Virus record (IMG/VR): IMGVR_UViG_3300047325_000170
Span: 47,161-111,160 of that record
DNA length: 64,000 bases
Origin: a virus
Strand: one strand, 5' to 3'
Part shown: one piece after another, positions 659 to 53,663 of the stretch
How positions within the stretch are numbered: position 1 is the stretch's first letter
Layout: each line of letters starts with the position of its first letter
Translations under genes and position numbers: made by a program
The notes under the pieces: model-generated
Seen by the model: only the letters and a program-made list of their open reading frames with translations
The model's database searches: none
What the model was told of the DNA's origin: nothing

Positions 659-3600
659 CTACGAGCGGCCTTTCAACTGATCACTCGCGTCCTTGTCACG
701 GTCGCGGGTCGTGCGGCGTGCGTCTTGCATATCGACGTTCACCTGGGCCCCAATGGCGTTGCTGATCCCGGCACGGAGCGCTTCGGGGCTTGACATGTCC
801 CCGTTCCGACTTGCACGTACCTGGATGTTGTAGCTCTGGGCCGAGCCACCGGTGTCGTTACTCATGACGCGGGTGCGGCCGCCCGTTGGGGGCTTGGGCA
901 TCTCGGGGGCGTCGCGGATCTCCCCGCTCTGTCCGAAGGTCACGGCTGCGGTTGCCAGGGCGCCTGCGCCAAGGCCGGCCATGACCCAGGGGTTCCGGAG
1001 TTTCTCCATCACCCCGCTCATTGAGAGCTTCTTTGCTATTTTAGCACCATCTTCGACCATTGAGCTAGCGTTTTGGGTGACCGGGGCCGAGATCATGTTC
1101 TCGGTGAGGTCCTTGGTCTCGGGCAGCACGGACTCTGGGATGCTTGCCCCGATCTTGGGTTCGGTCAGAGCTTGGCTTGCTGCCTGTGCCTCTTGCATGC
1201 GCTCTTCGGTTGTTCCGGCGGCGTCGATAGCCCCACGTCCAAAGATCCGTGAGAAGATGTCAACCGCGCTCCGGCCGACTTTCTTCCCTGGGTTGGTAAT
1301 AGTGCGCACCCAGTCCCCGGCATTCGCTAGGTCAAGTGGCCCGGCGCCGTTCTTCATGGCGGCTTGAGATTTCCAATTGACCGGTTCGGTAAAGGATTCA
1401 AACCAGGAGATCTCTTTGCCCCACTTGTCAAATTTCGGTTCCGCAGCCTGGCCAGTTTTCACCATGTCTGTGAAAGCCTTGAGGGCTTGGTACTTCCAGA
1501 TATCCTTACCGGCTTCCATGTCCTCCTTGGCGCCCGCAAGGAAGTACTTGTCCATGTAGCTATCAACGTTCATGGAGCCAGCGCTCGTTTGCAGCAAGCC
1601 GCTTTTTTTGTCATAGAGGTCCTGCGTCTTGTCGATCACCGATGCTCCCGCCACGCCCGGGACACTCACGGGCTTGCCAACCGACTGCTGTTGAAGGAGC
1701 GTGGTGAAAGCGTAGGGGTCAAACTGATTGCCGCCCTTCACCTTGAGGAACTCTTCACGAATGATGCCCGCGCCGGTATACTGCAGCGCTGCTAGCTCTC
1801 GTTCTTCTGGACTTGCTGCGGTGTTCTTGATCGTGTTCATGAGCCGGTCTTGGATAGGCGTCGTCACCGCTCCGATGAGACCCTGCGCACTATCAACCTC
1901 GTGCTGCTCGAGGATCCTCTCCATCGTGCTCATCTTTAAGATTGGGAGATTGGTATGATAGTAGTTCTCAAAGTTGGCGAAGAGCTCTGCTGTTTTGGGC
2001 AGGTTCGCTTTGATCTCTTTAAGGGCGGCTTCATGCCCTTCCCACGCTGCAACCTTGGCCGTCCATGCCGATTCGAATTGCCCGTGCAATTTCTGCATGA
2101 TCGCCCGATTGATTTTCGTTCCCTCAAGCATGCCGGCAAGGACAACACGGACCTTGTCACCGTCCGAGTCACCATAGAGTGCCTTACGCAGACTGTCATG
2201 AACGTAGAGGCCAAATCCCTTGATGGTATCGTCGACATAGACCTTTGCGCCCATACGACCGTAGATCGCATTGGGGTCGCGGTGCACGGTTGCCCAGAAG
2301 AACTCTTGTCCCCGCTCGTCTTTCAGCAAGCTTTGGCCCGGGACAGCGCCGATTTGTTTAGCAAACTCCCGAGAAACCTTGGCGCTGAAGGGTTGGAAGG
2401 ACGCATCGTCCGCCCAGAGGGACTGCTGAAGGGGTGCCTTTAAGAAGCCCTTCCCGCTGAAGTCGAGGCTCTTGTAGAGGTTGTTAAGGAGACCCTTCTT
2501 GCCCTTGATCTGCGTTGCAAGCGATTGCTGGTAGGACTCAATAGATTTATTGAGATCATCCAGGTGGGCAAGATTCTCAGGATCGATCCGAGCGCTGAGC
2601 GCAATCACGCGGTCGAGGGCGCGTTGCGATTCGGAGGGACGGTAGCCACCGCCCTTTACGTCGGTGAGATCGGGGATCTCATCGGGGGCGTAGAGCCGCC
2701 GCCCGTTTCCAATATCGATATACTGTGCGCCACGCCCATAGCGTGCGAGGTATTCGTCCTTTGAGAGGACGTTCTTCGGTGCTTGTTCGCGTAGGGCGAT
2801 CTGTTCGGCGGTCATTTCTGTTGCGCCGGTCGCATTCCCGAATTTCATCGGATTTTGGTTGGCTTCATACGCAGAGAGGTATTGGTGGAGCTTGTAGGCT
2901 CTCTTCTGAGTGGTCGGGTTAGCGAGGTAAGAGGTCTTGAGATTCTCAGCCTGGAGAAGGAGACCCTCAGCCTCGTAGGCCTTAATGTCAAAGGCCTGCA
3001 TACCGGCTTCGTTCCGCTTGGGATTGAGGCGTTTGTGCTTTGCGTAGAGCGCTTCTTCCGCTGTCATGTCCGTCGTGGGCGAAGGATCATTGATGACGCG
3101 AGTGGCCAGCATCGACTGTTCATACTGCACGCGGTAGCGGTTCCCGCTCCGTGAGGTGAAGTTGGTTGTTTGGAGTAATTCCATGCCGCCGCTCGGATCG
3201 ATCTTCTGTCCGAGCTCGTTCATCATGCGCTTCGCTTCAAGGGCCTTCGCCACGTTGGTCTCATCAAAGCGATGTTTGCCGGAGATCGCTCGGTTGACGA
3301 CGTAGCCATTCTCGATGCTGAACTTCATACCGAGACCAAGCTGATCGAAGATCTCCTGCAACCCTTGTTGAAGAGCAAGGGCCTTCTGGGGATCCTTGCC
3401 AGCCCGCGCCATCATCATATTCATCTGACCGCGGACGAGCATGCCTGCGCCTTCGTGCTTCTGGAGGGTCTTCACGAGTGGGACGCCAGAGAAGATCTTG
3501 ACGAAGTCATCGTCCCAGGTCGTTTTCCCACCGTTGATGACGACGGTGTTCTTCGACATATCGGCCATGATCTTCATGTTGTGAAGATTGGCCCCGGCCC

Positions 3601-6397
3601 CGAAGGCCTCGTTGATCTCGGGCTTCGCGATGGCCTGTTGTTCGTAGGCCCCCATCACCTGCATCATCTCGTCGGTCCCAAGAGTACGGACAACATTCCC
3701 CGCCTCGTCGAGCTCCTCGCCGCCAACGATGAAACCCATGCCGACATTGCGCTGGTAGGTGGGGTCTGCGAACTCCTTCCCGAGGCGGGACTCTACGCGT
3801 TGGAACTGCGTCATCGCAATCTCGTCCTCTGAATTGCGCAGGGGCACGGCATTGAACTCTTGTTGTGGTCGCGCCCAGGGATTACCACCGGGGACCACGT
3901 CTTGATAGATCGCCGCTGCGACGGGAGATCCCTGACGGCCCGCCTTATTACCAATGATCGCGAGACCCTCGACCCCCTGTCCGGGAGCGGAGCCTTGAAT
4001 CAGCCGCGTGCGAATCCGCTGCAGTTGCCGGTTCTTGACGGACGTATTTGAGCCGATGGTATTGAAGATGCGATTTGCAAAGCTTCCCTCGAAGCCGCCT
4101 CTTTCATCCTCTTTGTTTAAGAACTTCTCTTGAACTGTGTCTCCGCCGGCGCTTTCATAGAGGGCTTTTGCAACGGCATTACCTTCCTTGGGTTCGATAC
4201 GTCCGTCCTCTGCATTTTGAAAGAACTGCCTGAAGAACTTGTCGCGGTTGATGCGACTCTTATCGGTTGTGGCAAAAGCATAGATTGGATTGATTGTCGA
4301 CTCTGGCAAGAGCAAAGCATTATGAACGAGGAGTTGTTCTTGTGTCTGAACGGCCGACGCGGAGATAGCAATCCCGGGATCCTCGGCCGTGGCATCAAGG
4401 ACGCCCTTCCCGAGCTCAGACGTTGCTTGGTCAAAGAGTCCCATGTCGAGTTTGCGGACTGCGCGCTGCATGCGGCGGCCGACCGATGCGAACATGACTT
4501 CGGTGGCTGAGAAAACATGGAGTCCGCCTTGGATGCGGTTCTGCGCCGCAATCTTTCGTGCCTCGGAGTAGTTATTAAATGTCTCCGGTCTGACATGAAC
4601 TGTCTGATATTTCAGTCCTTGGTTGATGAGCTCGTTATCGTCGAGGAACTCGCTTCCCCGGCCCGATTGCCGTAGGACGAGGTCACTGACGCCAAGGTAC
4701 TGGCCGATATATTTGCTCCCGCCGGCCGTTTGGAAGACACCGTTGACGTCTTCAACGGGAAGGAAGAACTGAGCGGCCCCGCCGGTTCCTTTTGAGATGG
4801 CAGCGTTCTCGTGGGGAGCAATGTGAACCCAGACACCGAATCCTTGGCCACCGCCCTTGAGAGGGTTCGACTCTTGGAAGGAATAGGAGACCTTCCACTT
4901 CGCTGCACGCGGGACCGATTTTCCGTCCTTCTGCTCAAAGCTTTGAAAGAACTTGATACGTTCCTGAAGATAGTCGAAGGCGGCTTCACGGTTTCCGCCG
5001 ATGTTGCCGTTCCCGAAGGCGACGATGCCTGTTTTCTTCTCAAAGGTATCAAGGGCCCGAAGCCGCGCGCGTACATGGGCGGCTTCATCGAACTCATTGA
5101 CCTTGCCGGTCCACACTTTCTTGCTACCTTCTTGCTTCATCTCGAAGACTTCGCGTGAGGTAAGCTGCGCGATGTGGGACTCAAGACCACCGGGGATCTC
5201 TTCCGTACCCATCTTGAGGCCCATATGCTGGCCTTGTTGTTCAAGGTTTTCAAAGTGCCGGCGGAAGAAGCCAAAGGCTCCCTCTCCGGTGAAGGCTTCG
5301 CGCCGTAAGACATCCGCCCCGTGGGGCATGCCAAGGCCATTCACTGAGGTTTGCATCGCCTCGAGAACAGGGTTCATAAAGCGCTGCCACATCTTCTTGC
5401 GCAGAGCAGCGCGCATCGCTGGATGCTGGGCCGGATCTCCCTTGATCCGGCCATTCTTTACCAGTCGTTGCCATTGGTTCTCAAAGGCGGTCTCGAAGGT
5501 GTTGTAGATTGCCCGGCTCATCGCTACATTCTGGGGAGCGACGAAGCCCTGCATCACCCGGTTATAGAGGCCCTGTGCATCCTTCGTGTAGACGCCGCCG
5601 ATCCCGCGACTGCGGATCTTCGGGACGATCCCGCCATCGTCGGTTGTGACCGATCCGCGCTCGAGCAGTGCCTTGAAGCCGTCGGGATTGAGGAATTCGT
5701 GGGGCGACTTCTCATCATTCGTCACGCCACTGAGGGCCATCATCGTGCGCTGATGAGTCATGATGAGATCCTGGAAGCGGATCTGGCGCGCGGTCGCCTT
5801 GGTCTGTGCCATGTTAAACATGAGCTGACCGACATCTTCGGGGTTCATGGTTGCAGAGAAGCTCTTGCCAAGCTTTCCTATGGCGCCCTGGGGGACGATG
5901 TTCATCGCCACCTGTCCGCTCTCGGTGAGCGAGGAGCTAACCTTATAGACTCCAAACTGCTTGGTCAACTCGGGGTCCATGAAGCCAGCAGCACGTAGAG
6001 AATCCGTCATGACGTAATAGCCAGAAGGAAGCTCACCTTGCGCGATCTTGGCAGCGGTCTGAGCGCCGGCTGTTTTCATCTCCTCAAGGCGTCCCGCAGC
6101 ATTGGCGGCCCTCTCCGCCTTCGTCTCGGGAGTGAAACGGAAGTCACGTAAGGCAACTCCCATGTCCATGTCGCGGATCTTCCGCCGCGCCGAGGTGAAC
6201 TCAGGGAGATCCTTGGTGGAGGGAACCTTTGTGATCATGGCTTGCCAGACATTTGTGCCGCCCTCTTTAACAAACTTCCAGAGGTTTGCCGTCGCCAGAT
6301 AGCCGCTGCCCCGCATCTTCATATAGACCCCACTCTTGGTGGTGTCTGCGCCTTGGGCTGGAGCGTAATTCTTAACTACCTTGTCGTAGAGAGACAT
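659..6397 (-). CDS. Giant virion-cluster protein (1,912 aa) with RNA polymerase beta-prime-like DPBB motif
   Basis: ATG start overlapping the previous gene's TAA (TAATG). Residues 1408-1415 read YGDSDGDK, matching the DxDGD metal-binding loop of RNA polymerase beta-prime. Upstream, HRDP (1372-1375) and VHD (H1400) correspond to E. coli NRAP and LHP: the His-to-first-Asp distance is 10 in both, and Pro-to-Asp is 35 versus 33. A GLIGAVTTPIQDRL segment follows at about 1506. A Gly/Ala-rich membrane-type helix (about 1780-1800) precedes a charged, Gln/Arg-rich tail. Known single-chain enzymes with this motif include SP-beta YonO and crAss-like virion polymerases. The location after the tail chaperones suggests a protein packaged and ejected with the DNA. 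I could not locate the second barrel with its lysines, so polymerase activity is an inference. Confidence 0.6.
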   Translation of the reverse strand: MSLYDKVVKNYAPAQGADTTKSGVYMKMRGSGYLATANLWKFVKEGGTNVWQAMITKVPSTKDLPEFTSARRKIRDMDMGVALRDFRFTPETKAERAANAAGRLEEMKTAGAQTAAKIAQGELPSGYYVMTDSLRAAGFMDPELTKQFGVYKVSSSLTESGQVAMNIVPQGAIGKLGKSFSATMNPEDVGQLMFNMAQTKATARQIRFQDLIMTHQRTMMALSGVTNDEKSPHEFLNPDGFKALLERGSVTTDDGGIVPKIRSRGIGGVYTKDAQGLYNRVMQGFVAPQNVAMSRAIYNTFETAFENQWQRLVKNGRIKGDPAQHPAMRAALRKKMWQRFMNPVLEAMQTSVNGLGMPHGADVLRREAFTGEGAFGFFRRHFENLEQQGQHMGLKMGTEEIPGGLESHIAQLTSREVFEMKQEGSKKVWTGKVNEFDEAAHVRARLRALDTFEKKTGIVAFGNGNIGGNREAAFDYLQERIKFFQSFEQKDGKSVPRAAKWKVSYSFQESNPLKGGGQGFGVWVHIAPHENAAISKGTGGAAQFFLPVEDVNGVFQTAGGSKYIGQYLGVSDLVLRQSGRGSEFLDDNELINQGLKYQTVHVRPETFNNYSEARKIAAQNRIQGGLHVFSATEVMFASVGRRMQRAVRKLDMGLFDQATSELGKGVLDATAEDPGIAISASAVQTQEQLLVHNALLLPESTINPIYAFATTDKSRINRDKFFRQFFQNAEDGRIEPKEGNAVAKALYESAGGDTVQEKFLNKEDERGGFEGSFANRIFNTIGSNTSVKNRQLQRIRTRLIQGSAPGQGVEGLAIIGNKAGRQGSPVAAAIYQDVVPGGNPWARPQQEFNAVPLRNSEDEIAMTQFQRVESRLGKEFADPTYQRNVGMGFIVGGEELDEAGNVVRTLGTDEMMQVMGAYEQQAIAKPEINEAFGAGANLHNMKIMADMSKNTVVINGGKTTWDDDFVKIFSGVPLVKTLQKHEGAGMLVRGQMNMMMARAGKDPQKALALQQGLQEIFDQLGLGMKFSIENGYVVNRAISGKHRFDETNVAKALEAKRMMNELGQKIDPSGGMELLQTTNFTSRSGNRYRVQYEQSMLATRVINDPSPTTDMTAEEALYAKHKRLNPKRNEAGMQAFDIKAYEAEGLLLQAENLKTSYLANPTTQKRAYKLHQYLSAYEANQNPMKFGNATGATEMTAEQIALREQAPKNVLSKDEYLARYGRGAQYIDIGNGRRLYAPDEIPDLTDVKGGGYRPSESQRALDRVIALSARIDPENLAHLDDLNKSIESYQQSLATQIKGKKGLLNNLYKSLDFSGKGFLKAPLQQSLWADDASFQPFSAKVSREFAKQIGAVPGQSLLKDERGQEFFWATVHRDPNAIYGRMGAKVYVDDTIKGFGLYVHDSLRKALYGDSDGDKVRVVLAGMLEGTKINRAIMQKLHGQFESAWTAKVAAWEGHEAALKEIKANLPKTAELFANFENYYHTNLPILKMSTMERILEQHEVDSAQGLIGAVTTPIQDRLMNTIKNTAASPEERELAALQYTGAGIIREEFLKVKGGNQFDPYAFTTLLQQQSVGKPVSVPGVAGASVIDKTQDLYDKKSGLLQTSAGSMNVDSYMDKYFLAGAKEDMEAGKDIWKYQALKAFTDMVKTGQAAEPKFDKWGKEISWFESFTEPVNWKSQAAMKNGAGPLDLANAGDWVRTITNPGKKVGRSAVDIFSRIFGRGAIDAAGTTEERMQEAQAASQALTEPKIGASIPESVLPETKDLTENMISAPVTQNASSMVEDGAKIAKKLSMSGVMEKLRNPWVMAGLGAGALATAAVTFGQSGEIRDAPEMPKPPTGGRTRVMSNDTGGSAQSYNIQVRASRNGDMSSPEALRAGISNAIGAQVNVDMQDARRTTRDRDKDASDQLKGRS

Positions 6398-9300
6398 TAG
6401 GCCGCCTGCTGAATCTGCATGTTCACTTGATGTTGCTGAGCATTATTGGGATAGAGCTGGATATCGATATCGCGAAGCCCCATACCATCGAGGACGCGAT
6501 GGAGGTTCGCTTTGATGTTGCCGGGGGTCTCGCGGAAGGGACGGATGTCTTTGATCCCAAGCTCACTGACTCGCTCTTCATCCTGCGGCCAGAAGCCTTG
6601 GGAGGTCATATCGAGACCCTCTTGCTTCGTGACAACCAGACGGTAGTCGTCAAGTGAGTTCTCAGCCTGCCAACCATTCCAGTCCGCGGGCGGCAGGTAA
6701 TGGTGCTTGAAGTACTCGATGAGTTCTGGCTTCTCATCGACCTTTAGGCCATAGGCGGCTTGCAAGAAACGGCGCTCGTTCTTGGGCACCATCTTGAGGA
6801 TCTCTTTCCGCTCAGGCCCCGGGGCCTTGAGGAACGCCTGGAAGAACTCACGCTCCTTGGGGTCAAGTGAGAGCAAGACCTTTTGGAGATCGCTACCTGG
6901 CTTCGCACCATAGAGTGTCGTCTGCGCGACCTGACGATACTGGATCGCAAGGATATCATCACGGGTGAGCTTCAGCTCCTTGCGATAGGACTGCAGCTCG
7001 GAGATCTCTTGGTTGATCTCGTGCAAGCGCTTCGCTTGCTTCTTCTTGTCGCCCTTAATGATGATGCGCCGCTTCTCTTGCCGTAGTTGGGAGATGCGGT
7101 GCTTGCGATCATCGCCTTCGCGTTCGTAGCGGTCGATGATCGCGCCGATGTCTTTGTGCTCATGTTTGAGAACGTAGGCGCGCGTCTTCTCGTAGAGCCC
7201 CTCGTACTTCATGTACTTAAGAATGTCGAAGTACTCTTTGGTCTCGCGCTCTTTCTTACGATACTCCGGTATGGGATCTTGTGACACCTTATGGCTGAAG
7301 GCAAGCGCGCCGGCAATCGCCATCGAAGCACCCATCAAGATGGCGCGCGACTTCAACTGGATCTTCCCAAGCTTGAAGCCAAATTTGGTGTTGGGGAGAC
7401 GCTCAATGAGCTTCCCGCCGTAGAGGGGGCCAACCCCGAGGAAGTACCCGATAGCACCGGCAACCGCCATACCGGCGATGCCTTGTGCGGCAGCTGATTC
7501 AAACGAGGGGAAGATGTAATCCCGGAAAGGGTGCTTCCAGTCTTGCCAATCCTTACCGTAGACTTGCGTACGCTTATAGAGTTCGATAGGTGAGTCAAGG
7601 GCCATGTACTTATTGTGAAGCAGGGTGATCGGCAGGTGCCCAATGCGCTCAAGGGCTCCGGCCCAGGCGATCTCGTTGCTCGTGTACTGTGCATGCATAC
7701 CAGCGGGCGAACTATCTTGGGTCTCTGAGCCGTAGTCCTGATCGATAGCTTCGCGGTTGAGCATCCGCCCATGGCTAAAGACGACAGCGTGGATGGTGTT
7801 GAGGGTATCCTTCGAGACACGCTGCGCTTGATCGTGAGCATAGCCGATCTTCACCGTACGCCCCGGCCCGAGATTCTGGCTGAGCCAGGTGGTCGCATCG
7901 GCATCGCTGCGGACGTGAACACCCGCAAGGCGGATCGGATTGTCGGGGTGCTCGAGCGTCGTGAAGGTATTATTGTCGATCATCTTATCGATATGGACGG
8001 TCTCATAGTCGAGCTGTGCATACCGGAGATGATAGGGTGCCATCGTTACGCGGTGCTTGCGCTGCGTAACCTGTTCCTTGACGGTCTTGATGCGTGCTCG
8101 ATCTTCGTCGGAGAGGACGCCTTCGGGGAGATGCACGAGATAGTCGCGGTAGCGCCGGTACTGTGAGGACCAGGGCGCCACATCACCGAGGATCTCGAGC
8201 TTCGTGACATCATCGTAGAACTGGCCTTGGCTCCAAAGGCCTTCTTTCGTCTCCTTGGCGATCTGCTTGCGGACATCGTCGACCTTTGCAATCGTCTTAT
8301 CGTAGAGATCCTGATCGAAGGTCAGCTGCGCGGAACGCTGCTCATTTGGATTGTCGCGGTTGACGTAGACGATGCCGCCCTGCTTTGCGCCAAGCTCGGC
8401 CATGTCCAGGTTGAGTTGTTCGCGATGGCGTGCATCAATCGTGTCATGCAGTTCGCGATAACGCTTCTGCGAGAGGGTGTGGATCTCAATTGGGTTGCCG
8501 TCCTTGGTGACAAAGTCGACGGTTCCGGAGATCCCAAGCTTCTTGTCATCGTAACTGACGTCACGCTTGCCACCCGGCGACTCGCCGAGAAGCTCATGCT
8601 TGATCTTCTCATGCAGCTCTCCACCGCGTTCAGCGATTTCCTGTGAGTAGGCATAGAAGGGCTCGTGGTCTCCCGTTAAGAGTCCATAGAGTCCGTCGCG
8701 AGAGTAGCCGATCTGCGTGCTGCGTAGCTTGAGGTCCATGGCTGGTATTCCATGGAGTTTCTCGTAGGCCGCACCTGGCAGGCGCGCTTCACCGTTCGGG
8801 ATCGTGACATAGGGGTCGCCGTGGAGGAAGTCGAGGAAGTAGGCGGGGTCTTCACCGCCCTGCCCCGGCAACCAGGTGGGCATTGTATTCCGGATCGGAT
8901 TGTATTCGGTGTTGGAGTGATAGCGGTGGGGCAGGAAACGACGGAAGGCTTCTGAGAGCCCCGGTGTCGGCAGCATGCCGCCGGTGTTCCAGTTATCCCA
9001 GTACTGCCGCTCGAACGAGGTCATCCGTCCTGCTGATTGCAGGGTCGGCAAGTTGGAGTAGGGATAGTCCACGGTGCTCGCCGCGGCGAAGCCGTAGATA
9101 CCGCCGATTTCCGTTAAGGAGTAGTAGCCAAGACCGGCCTGATAGCGTGGATCGTTGGGATTGATGAGTCGCTTGAGGGAGCGGGGATCATTCGGATCCT
9201 GCGACTTGAAGAGCCCCGGCGCTTGCGTGCCTTCGAGCATACGCCCCGGCGTGAAGCGCTGCGCTGCCTTGAGCTTCTCGTTGGACTCACGGATCTTTTG

Positions 9301-15129: not shown

Positions 15130-16809
15130 TTAGGTTACTCCACCTTGTTGGCTGCTGCTGCCGGACTGGGTGATCGCTCCCGGTGCAGTGAGCGAGATCG
15201 TGACGTAGATCTTCCGGATCTGCAGAGCGGGAACGAGCTGCAGGTTGATCTGGAAGGTACCGGCGATCTGGTTCGCTGCCGTAGCGTTGATGTTCCAGGT
15301 GTAGTCAAGCAGGGCACCTGAGCTCTTGAGAGCCGCGAGTGCGGAGTTGACGGCGGTACCCATGGCGTTAATCGTAGCGGGGTTGGCTGCTCCGCCGATG
15401 AAGCCGGCGCAAGCCTGACGGACCGCTTCCATCGAGGCGTAGGTGATACGCAGCGTGGAGAGCTTGGCGAAGTCTCCACCAGAGACTTCGTAGGTCTGGT
15501 CAGCAACCGTGCGGACCGATCCCTGCTGGGTGTTGAAGACCACGAAGCCCGGACCGGAACCGACGAGGGTGTTGATGACCGAGGCTCCGTAGTTGTAGGA
15601 GAGGCCGACAACCGAAGAGAGGGTCTTGTTCGTCATACCGATTTGCGGCTGGATGGTCGTCGACTTTCCAGCGTAGGTTGCGGCGCCGTCCATGACGTAG
15701 TTGCCAAGGCGCTGGTTGTTGAGGATCGGGTCGGGACCGACGCAGATGTTGAGCAAGTACCCGATGTTCAGAGCCGCACCCGCCGTGGTCAAGACCTCAG
15801 CGTTTGAGACCGCCGGGCTGTTCGTGTTGTAGCCCGAGAGGTAGTTGAAGTTGTACTTTGTTAACGCCAACTGATTGCCGCGACGAACCGCGTTCGTGAA
15901 GGTCGGCACCGAGAGGGGAGCAACTGAGATCACACCGTAGCAGGACTGGGTATCGACCGAGACGCGCGCACAGAACTGCGCGAGATTCTGACCGAACCAG
16001 ACCGTATCGCCGCTGTTTGCATTGGCGATGGTTGGGTTGCCGGAGGCATCGAGCGCGTAGGTGGGCTGCAGGTAAGCACCCAGGGGGCAGACGACGTCCA
16101 CGCCGTAGGTCTCGAGCTGCATGTAGGCCGCAACGAGCGCGTCATTGTACTGCGCATCGGTGAGGTTGGTGCCGTCGTTACCACCGCTGAAGTTGGTCGG
16201 GCCAGAGTTCACAACGTTGATCGTGGCGAGGGGGTTCCCTGACGTGCTCGCCTGCGTTGCGACAACGTTGATCGTCGAGAAGTTAACCGCGTTCATCAGG
16301 TCGCCCCAGATGCCGCCCACCGGGATCGGGAAGGCGTGCGCGACGCCATCGAGGGTCGTGATGGTCAGAGATCCAGCGCCTGTGCCGGGAGCAACAACCG
16401 TTGCCGTCAGGCCATTGTACTTCACGCCGGGGTAGTTCGCGGTGAGGGTCACGCTATTCGCGGGGGTGACCGTGTCGGTGATAACAACTGAAGAACCCGT
16501 GCCCGAAACGCGCACGAGGTTGATGTTGGTGCAGCCAGCTTGGAAGGCTTCGTAGACGCCGCGAGTGAGCGACTTCGCCAGAATCGGCGCAGCCGTAATC
16601 GACGGCGCTGCCGTGGTGATCCCGAAGATCTGCTCGGCTTGAGCAATCGAGGTGATCTGGATCGGCGTGTAAAGGGGGCCGTCCGTCGCCACACCAAGCA
16701 GCAAGACTGCGTCGGTGAGATTCTGCGGCGGTTGTGCAACCTTGAGGCCGAAGTCCTGAATCTGGGCTACAAAGCCTGGAGTATTCGGGTAGATGTCGGA
16801 GATTGGCAA
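15130..16809 (-). CDS. Contractile tail sheath protein (559 aa)
   Basis: I chose TTG at 16809 because AAGGAGAG lies about 8 nt upstream; a longer reading from 16839 places that site inside the gene. The N-terminal part has VLLLGVATDGP and the sheath-like NINLVRVSGTGSSV. The C-terminal domain has FAKLSTLRITYASMEAVRQA, a GALLDYTWNI strand and RKIYVTISL, typical of tail sheath C-terminal domains. The same C-terminal pattern occurs in the 358-aa protein at 17849. It forms the contractile outer tube. The stop is TAA followed directly by TAG. Confidence 0.75.
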   Translation of the reverse strand: MPISDIYPNTPGFVAQIQDFGLKVAQPPQNLTDAVLLLGVATDGPLYTPIQITSIAQAEQIFGITTAAPSITAAPILAKSLTRGVYEAFQAGCTNINLVRVSGTGSSVVITDTVTPANSVTLTANYPGVKYNGLTATVVAPGTGAGSLTITTLDGVAHAFPIPVGGIWGDLMNAVNFSTINVVATQASTSGNPLATINVVNSGPTNFSGGNDGTNLTDAQYNDALVAAYMQLETYGVDVVCPLGAYLQPTYALDASGNPTIANANSGDTVWFGQNLAQFCARVSVDTQSCYGVISVAPLSVPTFTNAVRRGNQLALTKYNFNYLSGYNTNSPAVSNAEVLTTAGAALNIGYLLNICVGPDPILNNQRLGNYVMDGAATYAGKSTTIQPQIGMTNKTLSSVVGLSYNYGASVINTLVGSGPGFVVFNTQQGSVRTVADQTYEVSGGDFAKLSTLRITYASMEAVRQACAGFIGGAANPATINAMGTAVNSALAALKSSGALLDYTWNINATAANQIAGTFQINLQLVPALQIRKIYVTISLTAPGAITQSGSSSQQGGVT

Positions 16810-16921
16810 GTCACTCTCTCCTTGAGAGGAGATCAACAAACTCTAACTTACCCTGCATCTAGCGAACAGGCTCTTCAGCCCTAGCGCTCAGGTAATCTTG
16901 CGTGTACCTCTGGAGAGAGGC

Positions 16922-17848: not shown

Positions 17849-18925
17849 TTAGAGCACCAAGTTGATCTGCGCAGAGACCTGAATGAAGTCGGTTTCGAAG
17901 GGCGGCAAGACCGAGACCGTGATGTAGACCGCGCTCTGGACCGCTTGGACGGTGATGTCATAGGTGTAGGCGAGGATCGTTCCTGCGCTCTTGAGCGTAT
18001 CGAGAACCCCGACGACGAGCGGCGTAAGATTCGATGGCGCGGGATCTCCGATGAAGCTGACCGTAAGATCTCGTAAGGCACGAGAGACGGCATTGGCAAT
18101 CCGCATCGTCGAGAGAGTGTGGAAATCTGAAGAGTAGATCGGCGAGCTTGGATTGTTGCTTGTCGCCGTCACACCGTAGAAGGGCGAGACCCCATTGCGG
18201 ATATGGTACTTGAGTACCGTATAGCCCGCGTTCGAGAGTGCTTGGGCATCGCTTGTATCGTAGGGGTTGAGCAGATTGAGCCCCGCCAGGGTTTCGTTCG
18301 TGATGCTAACTGCAGGGGTGAGCTTGGCCATCAAGCCTGCCACTGAGGGTGCCGCATCGGCCTGGTATTGCGAGGGGATGTTCGGATTGATCAGCACCTG
18401 ATCGAGGGTGAGCACGAAGTTCCGACCAAGAACATCGAGCGCATTTTCAAGGGTGTTGAAGCCTGCGTTGTACCCATCTGGTGAAGCGGTGAGAGCTGCG
18501 ACACCAGGACTCGGATCGGCTGGCATGACGGTAATCGTCGGGAAGCCGATCTGACTGCGCAGGTACGAGAACTGTCCGAAGAGGGCAAGGTTAGAAGGTG
18601 TTGCGATCATGCCGGCCGGGACCAGGATGTCATACGGGATGTCTTTGAGGTAATCAAAGACAGCCGAGAGATCGCTTTCCTGGTAGATGGCAACGGCGAT
18701 GATACAAGGGGCGCTTTGCCGGAAGAGTTCGCCAATCGCGCGGGTAAAGCGTCCGTAGCCGTAAAGGTTCGCCGCTGAAACCAGGTCCGTAATAATGTAG
18801 GGCGTGTTGTAGATCGAGAGATCAAGACCAGGAACGACGCCAAGCACGAGGACCGTTTGGTTGACGGGGAGGTTCGGTGTTGCGGGAGCAAGCGGTGCGA
18901 ACGAGGTAGGGGAGAGATAACTCAC
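17849..18925 (-). CDS. Second tail sheath-like protein (358 aa)
   Basis: GTG start with GGAG 7 nt upstream. The N-terminus (TVLVLGVVPGL) and the C-terminal domain (DFHTLSTMRIANAVSRAL, then AGTILAYTYDI and VYITVSVLPPF) match the order of strands and helices in the 559-aa sheath, but the protein lacks about 200 residues of middle domains. It could be a short sheath for a special ring, such as the tail cap or baseplate-proximal ring, or a sheath completion protein. Sheath homology is well supported by the internal comparison; its separate role is inferred. Confidence 0.65.
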   Translation of the reverse strand: MSYLSPTSFAPLAPATPNLPVNQTVLVLGVVPGLDLSIYNTPYIITDLVSAANLYGYGRFTRAIGELFRQSAPCIIAVAIYQESDLSAVFDYLKDIPYDILVPAGMIATPSNLALFGQFSYLRSQIGFPTITVMPADPSPGVAALTASPDGYNAGFNTLENALDVLGRNFVLTLDQVLINPNIPSQYQADAAPSVAGLMAKLTPAVSITNETLAGLNLLNPYDTSDAQALSNAGYTVLKYHIRNGVSPFYGVTATSNNPSSPIYSSDFHTLSTMRIANAVSRALRDLTVSFIGDPAPSNLTPLVVGVLDTLKSAGTILAYTYDITVQAVQSAVYITVSVLPPFETDFIQVSAQINLVL

Positions 18926-23090: not shown

Positions 23091-26000
23091 CTAAGTAATG
23101 TAGGCCGAGATAACGGCCGTCGAACTAGACTGATAGGAGGAGTTGGAGCTGACGTTTCCGCCCGCGTTGCTGATACCGTTCGCCCCTTGCTTACCGACCA
23201 AAAGACACGCGCTGCGCGCTGAGTCTGCCGGATCGCAGTGGTACAAGTCTGCCCACGGTGGGTAGCCAATCTGATAACTACCGTGACTGACCAAGCCAAC
23301 GAGAACAATCGGCCAGGAGCCTGCAGGCGGTGTCCATGACGGGAGTCTCACGAGATACGTTCCCGTTGCATCGGCGGCACTATTGATGGTGATGGATCGC
23401 GTACCTTGCACTTCCCAAACGATGCACGCGCCTTCGTCCGTGTTGTTCCAATTGAAGGTAACGGCAGTGTCCGAGGCACTTGCCTTCTTGAAGATTGCAA
23501 CGCCGGAATAGGGCGAGGTGGTGTGGCTCGAAACGCTCGTCCAACCGGAAGGCGTGTTGAGCGTTTGGCTGGGGCCGTCCCAATAGACGAAAGCGAAGAG
23601 CGTGTTGCCGCTCGCTGCTGCTGTTCCCGGAAGTGTTGCGGTGATGCTTGGCCCCTGCGTGCCGAACGTACCCGCCATCGCTGATTGAATGATGGTGAAC
23701 GGATAGCCACCCGTGACCGTCACCGGATACGGCGTCAGCACCGAGACGCTCGTTCCCGTGATGCCTTGCACAATGCAGCTGTAGGGTGTTGAACCATCCG
23801 TACTTGGGAGCTGCACAAGCTCTCCCACGTTGAGACTTGGCGCAGACGTAAAGCTCATTGTGCCCGTGGATCCAGCAGCCGGCGGATAGAACGTAGACGC
23901 CAGCGCAGGATAACTCACGCCACCGCCACCGCTGCCTCCCGAAGAAGCGATAGTGAACGTGTTGCCGCTTTGCGTCACACCGCTTCCGGTGAGGGTGATC
24001 GCTCCGGTGACTGTGGAGCTTGGACCGATAATGGACGTGACACCTGATGCGCTACCGCTGCCGGATGTGCTGCTGTAGACGATGATGGAGCTGCCGGATC
24101 GCGTGACCGTCGTTCCGCCGCTGCCGACAAGTGCAAGGGTGCCGCTCGCCCCATTGAGCGTTGTGACGCCGCCACTTGTCGTGCCACCACCAAGGTTCGC
24201 GAACTGATAGTTCTTTGTGCCGCCAACGCTTGGCACATAGAAGATTGCGCCGTAGTCGTTCGTGAGTCCAGAGCCTGTTGTCGTTGCTGCTTGCGAAGCA
24301 ACGGCACTTGGGTTGGAGATATGCTGCGTCACGAGGTAGGTGCCAGCGAGGTCAAGGGTCCAGCCACTCGAAGCAACCGCCGTGCCTGCGCCACCGGAGA
24401 ACGTCTGTATCGCGAAGCTCAAAGAGTATGCGGGCACGGAGATTGAGGCCGTAGGATTGCTCGACGTTGCAACCGGAGTGGACGGCGTACCCCAATTGTT
24501 CACTTCATACATGACGTTTTGCGAGCTGCCGGTTAAGGCCACGCTTTGGTCAGAGCTGCCCGCTGAGGTCTTGGTAAAGACCGCCATGTTGTAACCGCTT
24601 GTATTATAGAAGGTCATCGTCCAACCGGAAGGCACCGACGGTTCTCCCGTGTTGTAGTACATTCCGAGGATAATGAGCAGGTTACCAACGGTTGGCGCAG
24701 ACACAAGTGATGCCGTCGAACTTGCGTAAGCTGATGAGTTTTTCTGCACCACCGATGGTTGCGGTTCTTCAGGGTTGTAGACGAGCGCATAGCCCAGCTG
24801 CTGCGTCGTTGTATCTACATCGGTCAGCGCCGCAAGGGTTGTGGCGCTTCCACCCGCACCCGTGCTAGAGATATTGATTGCGGAGCCTGAGACGGTCAGC
24901 GTGATATTGCTGCCCTGTTGAAGGGTGACGCCGCCCGTCAGACCATTGATCGAGGTAACGCCACCTCCACCAGAACCACTCGCGGTTGAATTGATGGTGA
25001 TCGCGGTGCCGCTCTGGACAACGGTGATGTTGGTACCAGCCTTGATGGCAAGGGCACCCGTTGCGCTATTGAGGCTCGTGACGCCGCCCGGAGATCCACC
25101 GGCAACGACAAAGCTGCCCGCCGCTGTCCCTGGCGTGACGGTTGTTCCACCGCTACCGAGGAGCGTGATTGGTCCCGTGTCGCCATTGAACGAACTGACC
25201 AGGCCACCAGAGGCAACGCTGCTGATGGTCAGGGTGCCACTTGAGGCGGTGATCGTGGTGCTGCCCGATCCCACAATATTGACGGGACCGAGGACTTCGG
25301 TGCCGTTGACGCTGATTGGCCCGCTGATGGCGACGAACTCGTAGGGCTGATTTGCGTTCGCGGGTGGAATGTAGAAGAGGCCATACGTGCCCGCGCCAGC
25401 TGTGGTGAAGGCATTGGCCGTTAAGGTCGGTGTGTAGGTTGTTGAGCCATTTGCGGTAATGGTCTCGGTATCGAAGGCCCAGGAATAGCCAGATCCTACG
25501 GGCGGTGTCGGACCTTCGTAGTCGGTCCAGCCGCTCATCGGGACCGGGAAGCTAGACGAACGATTCCCGAAGGTTGCAACGACAAGAGAATTGATGACCG
25601 GTGTGACACTGAGCGTTCCGCCCGTCGTGGAGAATCCGGTCGTCGTTTGGGCGCCGGCGGGCGTTCCCGCATTGGCAATCTCAAAGAGTTGGACGCTTGT
25701 CGCAGTGTTGCCGCTGCTTAAGAAAGTGACGCCCGTGTCCGTGCCGCTCGCGATCTTGTAAGCGGCAGCGGCAGTCTGGTAGTTGTTGGTCTGTGTGTAG
25801 ATGCTCGTCCAGCCCGAAGGGAGACTGTACGGGAAGCCATCGGCGAAGATGACAAGGAGCATCATGTTCCCTTGGATCGGCGTCGTCGGGAAGCTGAAGG
25901 TGGTTGGACCCGCGGCAGTACTCGCAAAGGAGACCGTCTGCCGGATGGTCGGGGATGGATTATAGGTTAGGTAGGTACCAAAGGCTTGCGTGCTCGTTGC

Positions 26001-29000
26001 GACGTCGGAGAGATTCGCGAGGGCATTGAGCTGCGGCACCCAGCCACCAGAAGCAGCAAGGTAGGTGAGATTGGTATTGTTGCTCGGAGATCCACCAACG
26101 TAGTCTTCGAGCATTTCGACCGTTGGATTGTAATAGAGGACCGCAGAACCGCTGCCGATAGATGAACTTCCTGCCGTCCATCCCGTGGTCTTGAGGGTCT
26201 TAACCGTCAGTCCCGTTGCGCTTGCAACATTCGTGATCGTGAAGATCGCGCTATTGCTCGCACTTGCGATGTAAACGTTCGTGTTCGGTGCGTAGAAGGC
26301 GGTCGTCGTAACGGGCAGCGTGCCGCTCGAGGCAATCGCCGGGATTGCAAAGCTCGAAGAGGTGGTAGCTAAGCCTCCACCGCCCGCGCCACTGAAGGCG
26401 ATGAGCGAGCCATTGGGAATGTTCGTTGCCCCACCTTGCACCACGGTCTGCACCGTGAGTGTGTTGGTGAGGATGTTCATGTTCGTGATCAAGCCAATAT
26501 ACGGGTAGTCCGTATTGTTGGCGATCTGCACATAGACATAGCCATTGCCGAAGATACCGGCGCTGCCGACACTGACAGTCGTTGTTTGCCCAACGATGGG
26601 CGGCGAGAAGTTCTGGGTGATCGTTGTCGCACCCGCTCCGCCGCCGGGGTTCCCCTGCGCACCTGGTGGTCCGCCAAAGGTGATGACGGTTCCAATGGAA
26701 AGCACTTGGCCGACGGTTGCTGAACCAAGGCTGATGGTCTGGATCGTTAAGGTGCTGCCGGAGACACCGGTGACATAGCCTTCGTAAGCGAAGGTGCCAC
26801 CGCTCGGCAACTGGACATAGACGCCGGCTGGGAAGGCATACGCATCAGCAACGGTGACGGTCGCAGCATTGCCCACGTTCGGAACCGTGAAGGTACCGAC
26901 AAGCGTTGTTGCACCGTGGCCAGCCGGTCCGCCCGATCCCGCTGGGCCCGTCGTGCCCTGCAGACCTGTTGGACCCTGGGGACCCTGGATGCCCGTAGAG
27001 ATCCCGGTCCAGGTGACGAGACTTCCCGAGGCAAGGGGTGCATAGGTCGGTGAGTAGACGGTCGTGGCGCTGATGGAACCCACGGCAGTGCCCACAACCG
27101 TTCCGACGTAAGGCGAAGGACCGTTGCTTGCGCTCGGAACAAGGATCTGATTGCCTACTCCAAAGGCGGTGGAGTCGACAACCGAGAGGACACCAAGGGC
27201 ACCCGACGCAGGCGGCGTGAAGGTCGCGTTAAGAGTCGTTGAGCCATGGCCGGATGGCCCGGTTGGGCCGGTGGGACCAACACTTCCCGTTGGACCCTGC
27301 GATCCTGTTGCGCCTTGCGGTCCACTGAAGGTTGCAATCGCTCCCGGAGAGAGAGTCGATGAAGTCCCAACGATGAAGGTTTCAACGGTGAGGGTATTAC
27401 CGCTCTGCGCGGTAACTTGGCCGAAGAAGGGACTCGTTGTCCCGTTCTCAACAAGGATGTAGCTTCCCGGGGGGAAGGCCGTGCCGTCGAGCACATACAT
27501 CGTGCCCGTTGCATTGACGCTCGGAACGGAGTAGCTACTCGTGAGCGAGGTTGCGCCATGGCCTGGTGTGCCGCTCGAGCCCCGTGCGCCGCTCCCTGCA
27601 CCCGAGCTGTTGACGACAACACTGATCGAGGGCATCGAGCCGCTCGAACTTGACCAACTCCAGCTCGGCACATACAAACTCGCAGAGTTGCCCGGAGATC
27701 CATAGACCTGGACATCGAGGGGATACGCGCCCGCACCGATGACGCCTTCGCTCGTCCACCCACTTGCCGCCGCTGTTCCGGTCGAGGTGCCGCTCTGCGT
27801 GAAGCCTGCGAGCAAGAGGCCGCCATTATAAGTGGGGATGAGCCCCGCGCCATTGGTCGTTGTGGAGATGTAGCTATTTGGTTGAAGCGAACTCCAGCCT
27901 TGGATCTCTTGGAGGTAGTAATTTGAAGCCGCGCTGCCCGCATAGGAGAAGCTGTACGCGGTCTCACCCGCGAGCACAACGTGCGCGAAGAGATCGAGTT
28001 CGGCATTTCCGTTATTGACCGTTGAGACAAGGTCCCAGACACTTGTCTGCGGCAAGACGGGAGCGTCAGTCTTGTGCGATGCCCACACAAGGACGAGATC
28101 TCCAGGTACAGCAGAGCTCGAGAGGGTAAGGGTCGTCGTGCCCGCACCGGTGTTGGTTGCGCTCGTGTGCTGGTAGATGACCGGCTGTGCGGTCGACGCC
28201 GGTTGAATGAGCAAGAGACCGGTATTGCCGTAGTTCTCATTGCTGGTAAAGCTAATGTTGTCCCAGAGGGTTGAAGCAGAGACGCTCGAGGTGTTGGGCC
28301 CTGTAATTGGCCCCAGCTGCACGCAGTGCGGCGAATAGAGCGGTTCGGGATCGGAGATGATAGACCAGCCACCGTTATAGGTTGGCAGGTTGCCCGTCCC
28401 GATGTTGAAGAGTGCGAGAGGTAAGCAGTAGAGTGCATTCGGCCCAAGGCTCGGTGTCGTCTGCGCGGCCGCAATTGCGGTGCCTGCCATGGCATGCTGA
28501 ATGATGCCTGCATTGGCAACTTCAAGGACGGTAACGGCCGTGTAGTCGCTCTGCGAGAAGGTAAAGGAAAGCGTGCCCTCACTGCCTACGGCCTGCTTCG
28601 TGTAGACCGCAAGGTTGTAGGGGAAGTGGTTCGCAAAGTCGAGCAGCGAGAAGCCCGAGGGAACCGTCGGGATATTGGTTCCCATCGCCGATGAGTAGGT
28701 GAGGATCGCAATGAGCGTATTGCCCGACGTTGGCTGTGCAACGTTGACGCTGACCGAGTTCGTGTCGGTGTTGCCGCCATTGCTGTTGACAACTTGAACG
28801 ACGTAGGGTTGCTGGACCGCAACCGATCCAATGGTGCCAATAGGTTGACCGGCGGGTCCTTCCGCACCACTGTTGCCCACTGTCGTATTCGAGGGGATGG
28901 GAGAGGTTGATCCCGTTTGAATGGTGAGGAGTGTTAAGCCCGTCGTGCCGATCTGAGCAAGGACCTGACCGATGTAGGGTTCAAGGCCGCCGGTAGAAAG

Positions 29001-32000
29001 CAAGACGTACGCACCGACGGTGTAGGCGGTGTTGTTGACAACCGAGAGGGTGTTCTCTCCACCCACCGCTGGCACATCAAAGGCGGCGGTGGTCTGCGTG
29101 ATACCGCTTCCCGTTGGACCCGTTGGGCCCGTTGGTCCCGTCGGACCGGTTGGGCCCGTTGGACCAGTTGGTCCCGGCGGTCCCGCCGGATTACCAGAGA
29201 AGGTAACGGTAGCGCTCGCGGCAATCGTCCCTGAACTTCCCGTTTGAACGGTCGTGACGTAGAGGTTCGAGGTTCCGCCGCCGCTGAGAACTTGTCCAAT
29301 GTAGGGCGAGACCGTTCCGTTGGACACGAGCAGATACGCACCGTTCGGGAAGGCGATGCCATCCGAGACCGAGAGCGTTGCGCTTGTGTTATACGCAGGC
29401 GGTGAGAACGGTGCCGTTGTGTAGGTTGCGCCGGGGCCGGTGGGGCCTTGGGGTCCCTGGACACCGGTTGGGACACCGGTGAAGGTAACGAGAGTCCCCG
29501 AACTGATGACGCTGCCCGCCGAGAGACTGCCGAGGTTGATCGTCTCGATGCCAAGGGTCGAACCGGAGTTGCTGGAGATCTGGCCTATGTAGGGCGACGC
29601 ACCGCCGGTCGGCATGAGGATGTAGGAACCAACCGGGAAGGCCGTTGCGTCTTCGACCGTGACCGTGGCTGAACTATCGACCGTCGGGACCGTGAAGTTC
29701 GCAGTCGTCAGCGTCGTGCCGTGACCTGAGGATCCCGTAGCACCCGTTGGCCCCTGGGGACCAGAGAAGGTCACCGTTGCACCGGAATGGATGACCGCGA
29801 CATTGGCTTGCTGCACGGTCGTTGCGGTGATTGCACCGGTCGTCAGATTCGCAGCGGTGATCAGGCCAACATACGCGACCGTTCCCCCATCGAGGACGCT
29901 TGAGATCAGGGCATAGGCACCCACAGGGAACGCGGTTGCATCAGCAACGTAGAAGGTTGACGAGGCACCCGCTGAGGGATTTCCAAAGTCGGCGGTTGTT
30001 GTTGTGGTGCCGTGATTGTTGGAAGTGATATTCTTCCAGGCCGGCAGCGCTGAGTTGTACGCCGTCTGGACAAAGAGCGAAGCTGTACCCGTCGAGTCGG
30101 AGTTCAGCATCCGATACGAGCCCTGGTTCTGTTGGTCGTTCGCGTCGGCGAAGGAACCACTGAGCGGCGGATCCGCCGAGCAGGTGATCGTGATCGGGAG
30201 GGTCGAGCTATCGACGGGGAAGAGGCGAATACCTAAGGTCTGGCTGTAACCACTAATCGAGGGGTTCTCAGGTCCTGGCTTGTAGCCCGTTGCATACTTG
30301 CCAACTTCGAACTGCGGGGTTGCCCAGAAGACATTCCCACCGGAGATCCCGCAGTGGTTCGTCTGTTGGATGACGCGCACGTAGAGTACCGAGCCATCGG
30401 AAGGACACTGCCAGGTAACCGAGACGATCCCTGACTTCCCCTTCGTTTGGTACGCGTTGGCGTAGTCGGTTGTATAATTGAAGTTCTGCGCGTAGCCCGG
30501 GGTCGCAGCAGTCGTTGCATCGACAATGCCCCAGAAGGGAAGGTTGCTCGACGTCGTAACGTAGGTCGCGTCAATGTAGCCCGAGAGCGTGTAATAACTT
30601 CCCGGGATGACGGGGATCGGCACCTGGCTGACGATGTGGCCGTCTTCGCCGGAGAACGTTGGGCGTGCGAAGATCGCATTCTCAACGCCCGTCGTATCAG
30701 CAGTCGTCCCACGCTGAACGCCAAACTTGACGCCATCGACCTGATAGCCGGCCCAGTACGGGTTCCAGATATCGGAGCTGCCAGCGAAGCCCGAGCTATT
30801 GAAGTCACTGGCATCAAAGTTCGAGTCCGTGATAAGGTTCGGGTTCGTTGAAGCAAGCCCCGGTGGATTGAAGGGCACGGCCCCCGCCGAGGTCGTGATC
30901 GGGGTGATGTACGTCTCGGTGCCACTCGTCGAGATCCCCGAGACCGCGAAGTCCCAGATGACACCATTCGAGAGATCTTCAAAGGTGTAGGTGTACGTAC
31001 CAACGAGAGGCAGGTTGTTGAGGTCGGGATCGGCGAGATCTTGCGCGGGGATAATATCCCAGCCCGACCAGTACGGATCTCCGTCCTGTCGCACCCAGAC
31101 GTGCAGATTCCGCAAGCTTCCATCGAGGGGCTGATTCTGCACTTGGAAGGACACAACGTAGGCTGTCGTGATGCCGTTGATCGAAGGAATCGTTTGGACA
31201 GCAGGAATCGCAGCGGGAATACCACCACTGCCCGCCGGTACGCCAGCGGTGACTTGGGGCACCCACGCCGTGTTGTTCGCCAACATGTCGTTCGTGAGGC
31301 CCATCTGGCCATTGAACCAGCTATCGGCAAAGACGCTGATGGGACCGGTAACTTCGCCTGTGGAGATGTAGCTCGCCCCGAAGTCAAAGAACTTTGAGGA
31401 GAGAGGCACACGGCCATAGGAGTAGGAGATCGCCTGACCTTCAGGGGGCGACGGCAGGCCATTGATGTTGATCTTGTCGGCGAGGATCCAGGGATAGGTC
31501 TTCGGGGGATCGATGCCGCCGGGATCAAGCGATCCAATGAGGATCGTTGCGGCGTGGTAGCCCTGTTGATACCCCGTCTGACTCGAGGAGTTGATCCCAA
31601 AGGTACAACTGATGGGCGTGACTTCATCTTGCGTCAGTGAGAGCGAGTGAGCCGAAGCACCCTGGTAATAGTTTTCGTCGTAGGCACTTGAATAGCCGAC
31701 GTAGCCATCGAGAGTCCAGCCCGGTGAGAGAACCGTTGGATCAAAGCCCGGATCGTCAAGATGCAAGCCGATCCACGAGATCGCAAAGTCGGCAAAGACG
31801 CGCGGGGTTACGGTCTGGCTTGTGACCGATGCTGATCCATTCGCATTAACGATAGAGTCGACGACATCAATCGTTGCTGTTGGGCTGACGCCACCGAGCT
31901 CATAGCAGAAGATAAGCGGGACGCCATAGATGAAGGTGTTGTAAACGTCCTGCGTCAGACCGCTTGCGGCGTCTTCTGCTGTCCAGAACTTGTAGAAGAC

Positions 32001-34919: not shown

Positions 34920-36023
34920 CTACATCGTCTTGACGAGCAGCGGACGGTTGTACGACGGGGTCAGCGAGATGGAGCGGATCTGAACGATACCGCGGCCTTC
35001 GTTGTAGATACCCGGGCTGTAGCGTTCCTTGACGCGGAAGGAGGTGATGTCGTGGATGGGATCCTTGAACTCATCGGTCGACATGTCTTCACGCACGAGG
35101 ATCGCACCGACATTATCACGGTCCAGAAGGAACATGTCGAAGGTGCGGTTGACGCGGTCGATTGGCGCGAAGGGGGTCAGGATCACTTCGAAGCTGAAGG
35201 GCAGGCGCGATTGAATCGACTGCGGTCCAAGCTCGATGTCCTTGACCGGATACGCGACGTTCTGACCCGGGAAGACAACGTTCTGAGCGAGCGATCCGAG
35301 GATGTCGTTCTTCGCGAAGACGGCCCAGACCAGGGGGTGGATCAGCAAGGTCGTGGGGACGTATCCATTATACATCAGCCCGGCAAAGAGGTCGATGAAG
35401 TCGAAGACCGAGAGGGTGTTGTTCGGATTGCCGTCAGGACCAAGGCCCGTCGTGTGCTGGGTCGGGTCGGTCGAGGTGTTGTCCATGAAGACGTGGGAGT
35501 GCTTGTAGAGCTCTTTGAACAGCCACTCTTCCTTGAAGCGAGCCATCGCGCGGCCGGCGTAGCGGAGGTGCATGCCGATGACGTCCCACTCGGAGTCCTG
35601 AATCATTTCGTCGGTAAGACGAACCAGAAGACCGACCTTACGGACCTTCACCTCGAACGTGGAACGGTGACGCTGGAAGTCCAGGGTCTCAGCCTTGTAG
35701 GGCTGCGCTTCGTCGACAAAGTGGGCACGGAGCAGGCCAACTGAGGGGAACTCAATTGAGGTACCCTGCGTCACGCGAATGGTCGTGAAGAACTGGCTTG
35801 CGACGTACACGGGCTCTGCTGCTTCACGCATCACGCCAGTGATGATCTTGGGGACCAACATGGCTGAGTCATCAGAATTCAGAGCTTCAGCAATTCGGAA
35901 GTTGCGAACGGCTTCACCGTCCGCGTTAACGAGGTCATCCCATCCGCCATTCACCCGCTTGTAGGACTCGCTGAAATGACGGGCAACGATCTCCTCGAAG
36001 TTATCCTTGAGGGTTTTAGCCAC
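34920..36023 (-). CDS. Major capsid protein, HK97 fold (367 aa)
   Basis: I place the start at the GTG at 36023, which has GGAGGA about 10 nt upstream. A longer reading begins with a TTG at 36143, inside a hairpin (36121-36150), and contains that ribosome site. The sequence has the layout of HK97-type capsid proteins of large phages: a short N-terminal helix, TSIEFPSVGLLRAHFVDEAQ, VRKVGLLVRLTDEMIQDSEW (the spine-helix region), and a C-terminal FRVKERYSPGIYNEGRGIV then IRSI strand. It follows the protease-scaffold gene in the canonical order. Confidence 0.75.
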   Translation of the reverse strand: MAKTLKDNFEEIVARHFSESYKRVNGGWDDLVNADGEAVRNFRIAEALNSDDSAMLVPKIITGVMREAAEPVYVASQFFTTIRVTQGTSIEFPSVGLLRAHFVDEAQPYKAETLDFQRHRSTFEVKVRKVGLLVRLTDEMIQDSEWDVIGMHLRYAGRAMARFKEEWLFKELYKHSHVFMDNTSTDPTQHTTGLGPDGNPNNTLSVFDFIDLFAGLMYNGYVPTTLLIHPLVWAVFAKNDILGSLAQNVVFPGQNVAYPVKDIELGPQSIQSRLPFSFEVILTPFAPIDRVNRTFDMFLLDRDNVGAILVREDMSTDEFKDPIHDITSFRVKERYSPGIYNEGRGIVQIRSISLTPSYNRPLLVKTM

Positions 36024-36120
36024 TCTAGTATGTTCCTCCACTTGGGAGTGTATTTGTCTTACTTTAGTGGCTGTCAGTCCCTCGGTTGGCGCCGAAGTCC
36101 CGAGCCGTCTAGCTTGGGCC

Positions 36121-53055: not shown

Positions 53056-53071
53056 CCACGTTGCCAAGGGG
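53056..53071 (+). promoter_or_regulatory. Start-associated element copy 1
   Basis: CCACGTTGCCAAGGGG, variant form, 155 nt before the start at 53227. Confidence 0.45.
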
Positions 53072-53659: not shown

Positions 53660-53663
53660 TCCC

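Follow-up and report, generated by a model that had tools for sequence, protein, structure and literature searches.

Does a giant protein encoded among the virion genes of a large phage contain an RNA polymerase (RNAP), and does its position suggest that the enzyme enters the cell with the phage DNA? The window, by which we mean the whole 64,000-nucleotide stretch analysed, comprises bases 47,161-111,160 of a linear viral record of 111,160 bp. An ORF at 659-6397 on the minus strand encodes the protein in question, P0001, with a translation of 1,912 aa. An earlier note, made from the sequence alone, had read in P0001 the active-site signature of the RNAP beta' subunit, and the motifs it listed were confirmed at exactly the residues it gave: HRDP at 1372-1375, VHD at 1399-1401, YGDSDGDK at 1408-1415 and GLIGAVTTPIQDRL at 1506-1519. 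The pattern D-x-D-G-D by itself arose in 426 of 20,000 shuffles of P0001 (2.1%), so it is weak evidence when taken alone. The combination of R-x-P, the right spacing and [GA]D-x-DGD was recovered in only one of 20,000 shuffles.

Single-sequence searches of Pfam, PHROGs and PDB with P0001 gave no significant match, direct tblastn against INPHARED and peptide patterns against IMG/VR produced nothing usable, and no close relative was found. Because these direct searches were empty, relatives were reached through the neighbouring gene, P0002 (6397-11583, minus strand), which encodes another giant virion-cluster protein of 1,728 aa, lies upstream of P0001 and overlaps its start with its own stop. 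Homologues of P0002 are present in Moorella phage MTATph1, Bacillus phage KLEB27-3 and Acinetobacter phage ME3, in ten phage-plasmids of Bacillus, Paenibacillus, Cytobacillus and Cetobacterium, and in 79 IMG/VR loci plus four genome contigs; IMG/VR scans based on the tail sheath and on P0008 yielded no loci. Immediately following the P0002 homologue is a gene for a giant protein, and this slot is the same in ME3, KLEB27-3, the phage-plasmids and the IMG/VR contigs. As a separate observation, residues 976-1111 of P0002 (window 8251-8658, minus strand) match a Cas4/PD-(D/E)XK-like nuclease family (phrog_1706, E=1.7e-10, annotated 'CRISPR/Cas system associated'); this stretch looks inserted, and relatives appear continuous across the same point.

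Many of the slot proteins contain R-[YFSDET]-P followed, some 33-40 residues on, by D-x-D-x-D, and about 35 distinct proteins with this arrangement remained once near-duplicates were removed. Examples are VRYPTFHDGAMQFTKL...ADSDGDY in Bacillus licheniformis plasmids, NRYPTINQ...ADYDGDF in KLEB27-3 and SREPAQ...GDHDQDQ in ME3. The proteins span ~1,600-3,300 aa, with the RNAP in the C-terminal half, and share little sequence: in a 32-row alignment only R1373, P1375, D1410, D1412, D1414 and G1509 (P0001 numbering) are invariant, S1314, Q1570 and one lysine are nearly so, and the rest has drifted to ~16% identity. The invariant R-x-P and aspartates define a beta'-type double-psi barrel segment, DPBB-A, at residues 1373-1414 (R1373-x-P1375...D1410-x-D1412-G-D1414; 2156-2281, minus strand). 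A further likeness that had been proposed, an exact His-to-Asp spacing equating H1400 with the histidine of the E. coli LHP motif, failed as a family feature. The column holds T in 17 of 32 rows and H in P0001 only, and we therefore rejected the equivalence as coincidental.

The link between P0001 and its positional counterparts rests on profile comparison only, since phmmer found no match between them. A profile was built from 35 relatives without P0001, and every ORF of the 111-kb record was scored with it. P0001 reached E=3.9e-9, its match consisting of two blocks, 941-1205 and 1280-1513, that are collinear with the profile; the next ORF of the record and the best-scoring of 200 P0001 shuffles each gave E=0.04. 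Taken alone, the first block is weak (10.6 bits, with composition bias). Among plus-strand ORFs of at least 250 aa in the related loci, the same profile detected nothing but slot proteins at E<=0.01. With all distant rows included, the profile lost the stringency needed for a further scan, and a scan with a tighter family profile revealed no new phages.

Comparison of the 32-row family profile with PDB placed the non-virion RNAP (nvRNAP) of PhiKZ first (E=1.8e-5), with the AR9 nvRNAP at 0.017 and further matches to archaeal, eukaryotic and bacterial beta'/Rpb1 chains; 48 of the 49 matched entries were RNA polymerases. A 12-member profile of the whole core found no PDB match at E<=1. Individual members of the family gave concordant signals: Pfam RNA_pol_Rpb1_2 was detected in six of 32 (best 3.5e-4) and the PHROG 'RNA polymerase beta subunit' in seven of 32 (best 5.8e-7). 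The YonO/RNAi-type RNAP family (PF05183) was absent from the 25 Pfam families matched by the 32 members, in which the recurrent match was RNA_pol_Rpb1_2.

Structure prediction pointed the same way. An AlphaFold model of P0001 residues 880-1720, built on an alignment that contained canonical relatives, was poor overall (pLDDT 51.7, pTM 0.35) and good around the motif, where the DPBB-A segment forms about six strands with pLDDT mostly 70-86. The model of a counterpart from another locus, L169, was confident (pLDDT 78.8, pTM 0.79). In Foldseek searches of PDB the top 50 hits were all RNAP beta'/Rpb1 chains, both for the partial P0001 model (E from 2e-6, probability ~1) and for the L169 counterpart (E from 2.6e-5). 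TM-scores against PDB chains reached only 0.10-0.15 by query length, as the alignable part is confined to the ~250-300 columns of the beta' core. In a viral structure library, the best match of the L169 model, extending along most of its chain, was a 'minor tail protein' entry; two ME3 proteins came next, and viral RNAP subunits after them. Together, the sequence and fold data show that a giant tail-cluster protein contains a beta'-type RNAP catalytic barrel, with R-x-P and three Mg-binding aspartates, and that this barrel is conserved across a wide lineage. The absence of any double-psi barrel, which the earlier note had named as grounds for refutation, is thus not what we see for the aspartate barrel.

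A complete enzyme of this type requires a second, lysine-bearing barrel, and here the evidence is less direct. Relatives contain G-E-K-x-T...N-P-x-x-x-K-H ahead of the aspartate barrel. The P0001 counterpart, our candidate DPBB-B segment, is G-G-K958-T-T...K980-H at residues 956-981 (3455-3532, minus strand), within profile block 941-1205. K958 precedes R1373 by 415 residues in P0001, and the corresponding distance in relatives is 427-531. Motifs of the G-x-K-x-T...KH class appeared in 0.2% of shuffles. A profile of the lysine-barrel region alone matched no PDB chain, and the L169 counterpart model has a confident beta-rich region without an established barrel topology. A second, lysine-bearing barrel in the same chain therefore remains an inference: conserved motifs at similar spacing make a complete single-chain, two-barrel enzyme likely, and without a PDB match it is not shown.

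Two features follow the aspartate barrel. Residues 1506-1575 (1673-1882, minus strand) form a post-barrel motif, LIG..TTP...Q1570...K1575, that aligns with the family pattern K-x-x-IG-x-x-SN...EQK-x-I-S-x-K. The IG...SN and EQK-x-I-S-x-K segments are helical in the L169 counterpart model. This motif may be the bridge-helix/trigger-loop region; the functional name is inferred, and no residue-by-residue assignment of either element was made. A hydrophobic segment at residues 1802-1821 (935-994, minus strand) lies ahead of a small C-terminal tail, and similar C-termini are found in the counterparts from KLEB27-3 and the phage-plasmids.

The surrounding genes place P0001 in a tail cluster. Two sheath genes, a tail sheath protein at 15130-16839 (phrog_16991, E=5.9e-67) and a second sheath-like protein at 17849-18925 (phrog_16991, E=1.2e-15), are encoded on the minus strand, as are the major head protein (34920-36143; phrog_3922, E=8.3e-25), the portal protein (39938-42433; phrog_9232, E=7.8e-54) and the terminase large subunit (46339-48117; phrog_2, E=4.8e-31). 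The phage of the window thus has a contractile tail. A 3,306-aa protein with collagen-like GPTGPT repeats and a weak tail-fibre match is also encoded on this strand (23091-33011), and short degenerate GC-rich direct repeats with units like AGGCTTGGCAAGG cluster at 62747-63113. Downstream of P0001, a 2,239-aa ORF gives an endolysin-family match (phrog_20474, 1e-142), and genes for an SLT transglycosylase and for Baseplate J are found there as well. The order at the slot is accordingly sheath, tube and chaperone-type genes, then the P0001-type gene, then endolysin/hub, SLT transglycosylase and Baseplate J. For 0305phi8-36, tail length was the main ground on which the gene flanked by the P0002 homologue and the hub was called the tape measure (PMC2147016); we matched the two slots through the ME3 annotations. 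Fusion of the RNAP to a protein at this slot position is shown; the name tape measure rests on 0305phi8-36. A DPBB-type RNAP in the virion cluster of a contractile-tailed phage, as the earlier note had proposed, is therefore upheld by the independent family profile, the PDB profile matches and the fold searches; the note was silent on, and so missed, the minus-strand orientation, the tape-measure slot and the wider family.

Not every slot protein contains the polymerase. No RNAP module was detectable in the slot gene, labelled 'tape measure', of L147 (14254-21927), a 218,948-bp isolate record that we take to be 0305phi8-36, an identity presumed from gene order and not proven. The module is likewise lacking in L155 and L157, both 0305phi8-36-like, in some other loci and in MTATph1, which makes it dispensable for the slot. 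A 3'-5' exonuclease-like (RNase_T) domain is N-terminal in some relatives, being found in the MTATph1 slot protein and in one Bacillus-type relative; Pfam detected none in P0001. From this patchy presence and absence we conclude that the slot protein is modular, and that the polymerase has been gained or lost. In MTATph1 the slot protein (L005, 30512-36780) has the exonuclease-like domain only, and the gene immediately after it encodes a transposase; the remainder of the protein may have been displaced by an insertion.

Other giant proteins with related motifs came to light outside this slot. A scan for the pattern GDxDGDKV returned mostly unrelated proteins together with two genuine-looking giants in a different context, at L098 (1328-10354, minus strand) and L025 (3097-10509, minus strand). 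These phage proteins of 3,009 and 2,471 aa, both partly open, have R-S-P...H-P...GDxDGDKV near the C-terminus and HEY-x-H metallopeptidase-like motifs, and the former additionally has a helicase-like P-loop. Both are likely to be other virion RNAP fusions. The ME3 slot protein, ME3_36 (L128, 22610-27421), has a variant Mg motif, GDHDQD. Two uncharacterised ME3 entries in the viral structure library are similar to the family model, and it is possible that ME3 has two such enzymes.

One repeated element is a candidate phage promoter. Allowing up to one mismatch, the window contains 13 copies of CCACGCTNNNARNGG where 2.86 are expected; none of 100 shuffles reached 13, and 11 of the 13 copies lie on the plus strand in a region of small, early genes (53,056-58,857). 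Several copies (55,105; 57,397; 57,633; 58,113) are wedged between a terminator-like hairpin and the Shine-Dalgarno sequence and start codon, GGAGGTGA-ATG, leaving no room for a sigma-70 promoter. A reading of CCACGCTNNNARNGG as a hairpin was abandoned, since the copies do not consistently preserve the CCAC...GTGG pairing. In the absence of promoter data, the element is only possibly a phage-specific promoter and could equally be an operator or a leader element; any tie to the P0001 enzyme is a guess.

We consider it likely that the C-terminal half of P0001 is a single-chain, two-barrel RNAP in a tail protein that is injected and performs early transcription. In this model, residues ~940-1600 would form the polymerase, with the preceding beta-type barrel supplying the basic residues of G-x-K-x-T...KH. 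P0001 would be assembled into the tail in the tape-measure slot and threaded into the cell together with the DNA, where it would transcribe the phage genes that enter first, using phage-specific promoters (candidate CCACGCTNNNARNGG) and independently of the host enzyme. Packaging in the virion and injection, also claimed in the earlier note, remain inferred from the slot and from precedent only: tail carriage, injection and early transcription are proposed by analogy with P23-45 gp96 (PMC10770324), and there are no virion proteomics or activity data. For KLEB27-3, whose counterpart is annotated 'structural protein', no proteomics paper reporting that protein in virions was found in the literature searched. 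On balance we lean, with some reserve, towards a bolder reading, namely that these proteins constitute an unrecognised and deeply diverged family of virion RNAPs, housed in the tape-measure-slot protein of contractile-tailed phages and phage-plasmids related to 0305phi8-36, ME3 and KLEB27-3, in some cases fused to an exonuclease domain, entering the cell with the DNA and acting at a promoter of their own (CCACGCTNNNARNGG here).

Several other explanations deserve consideration. The two-barrel RNAP might never be packaged, being a non-virion enzyme made during infection whose gene sits in the tail cluster by chance. No virion mass spectrometry exists for the phage of the window, and non-virion two-barrel RNAPs are common in phages (PMC10770324). 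However, the gene lies between tube/chaperone-type and baseplate genes in a co-oriented cluster, its fusion to a large N-terminal region and a hydrophobic C-terminus is conserved with structural counterparts, and the slot is constant across ME3, KLEB27-3, phage-plasmids and IMG/VR contigs; we regard this alternative as unlikely. Less favoured still is a catalytically dead or repurposed double-psi barrel with a structural role in the tail. P0001 belongs to the most diverged part of the family and some lineages lack any such module, but the arginine, proline, three aspartates, G1509, Q1570 and basic residues are kept while the rest stands at ~16% identity, which indicates selection for catalysis.

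A different two-barrel polymerase, such as a PolD-like DNA polymerase or an RNAi-type RNA-dependent RNA polymerase (RdRP), is very unlikely. PolD and RNAi RdRPs do share the same two-barrel active site (PMC10770324, PMC7824862), and YonO/RdRP-like enzymes exist in related phages, for example 0305phi8-36 gp99 (PMC2147016), but the relevant PDB profile matches and the top 50 Foldseek hits are all DNA-dependent RNAP beta'/Rpb1 chains, with no PolD among them. That the motif arose by chance in an ordinary tape-measure protein gains some support from the frequency of D-x-D-G-D in shuffled P0001 (2%); the invariance across ~35 positional counterparts, the independent profile match and the PDB and Foldseek results already refute this reading, and it is all but excluded.

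If the preferred reading of an injected, tail-borne polymerase is correct, a large lineage of contractile-tailed phages joins the carriers of virion RNAPs, with laboratory-accessible members in Bacillus phage KLEB27-3 and the Bacillus licheniformis phage-plasmids. The putative ruler of tail length would then double as the first transcription enzyme, and passage of so large a protein through the tail tube, followed by refolding, becomes testable. The findings suggest that much of this phage lineage brings its own transcription enzyme into the cell and that fusion of polymerase to tail protein arose more than once. They add a new deep branch to the history of two-barrel polymerases and correct dozens of 'hypothetical' or 'structural' annotations.

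Virion RNAPs are established in few lineages only: N4-like, phiKZ-like and crAss-like phages, and P23-45. No paper describing the slot-protein family was found in the literature searched, which did not include the supplementary survey of PMC10770324. The nearest precedent is gp96 of Thermus phage P23-45, in which a tape-fused virion RNAP is proven (PMC10770324): like the enzyme inferred for P0001, it is a two-barrel, single-chain RNAP in a giant tail protein of the tape-measure slot, with D-x-D-G-D and very low sequence similarity to other RNAPs. However, the P23-45 tail is long and non-contractile, and the gp96 RNAP is N-terminal in a 5,002-aa protein, whereas here the tail has sheath genes and the polymerase occupies the C-terminal half of proteins of 1,600-3,300 aa. 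These differences mark a distinct architecture, and we have not filed P0001 in the P23-45 family. The crAss-like phage phi14:2 gp66 (PDB 6VR4, cited in PMC10770324) is a virion RNAP with two barrels in one chain, fused into giant virion proteins, as we infer for P0001, but its phage lineage and gene context are different; Foldseek similarity of the family model to crAss entries in the viral library is only weak (E about 1e-3). The closest solved sequences by profile, the beta' chains of the PhiKZ and AR9 non-virion RNAPs (7ogp, 7s01), have the R-x-P-T...D-x-DGD segment in common with the family, but those enzymes consist of several subunits and are not part of a tail protein. Lastly, the 'tape measure' gp146 of 0305phi8-36 (PMC2147016) occupies the same slot, between P0002 homologue and hub, in the same lineage. 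The 0305phi8-36-like slot gene of L147 nevertheless lacks the RNAP module that P0001 has, and the known RNAP of 0305phi8-36, gp99, is a YonO/RNAi-type enzyme encoded by a separate gene elsewhere in the genome (PMC2147016, PMC7824862).
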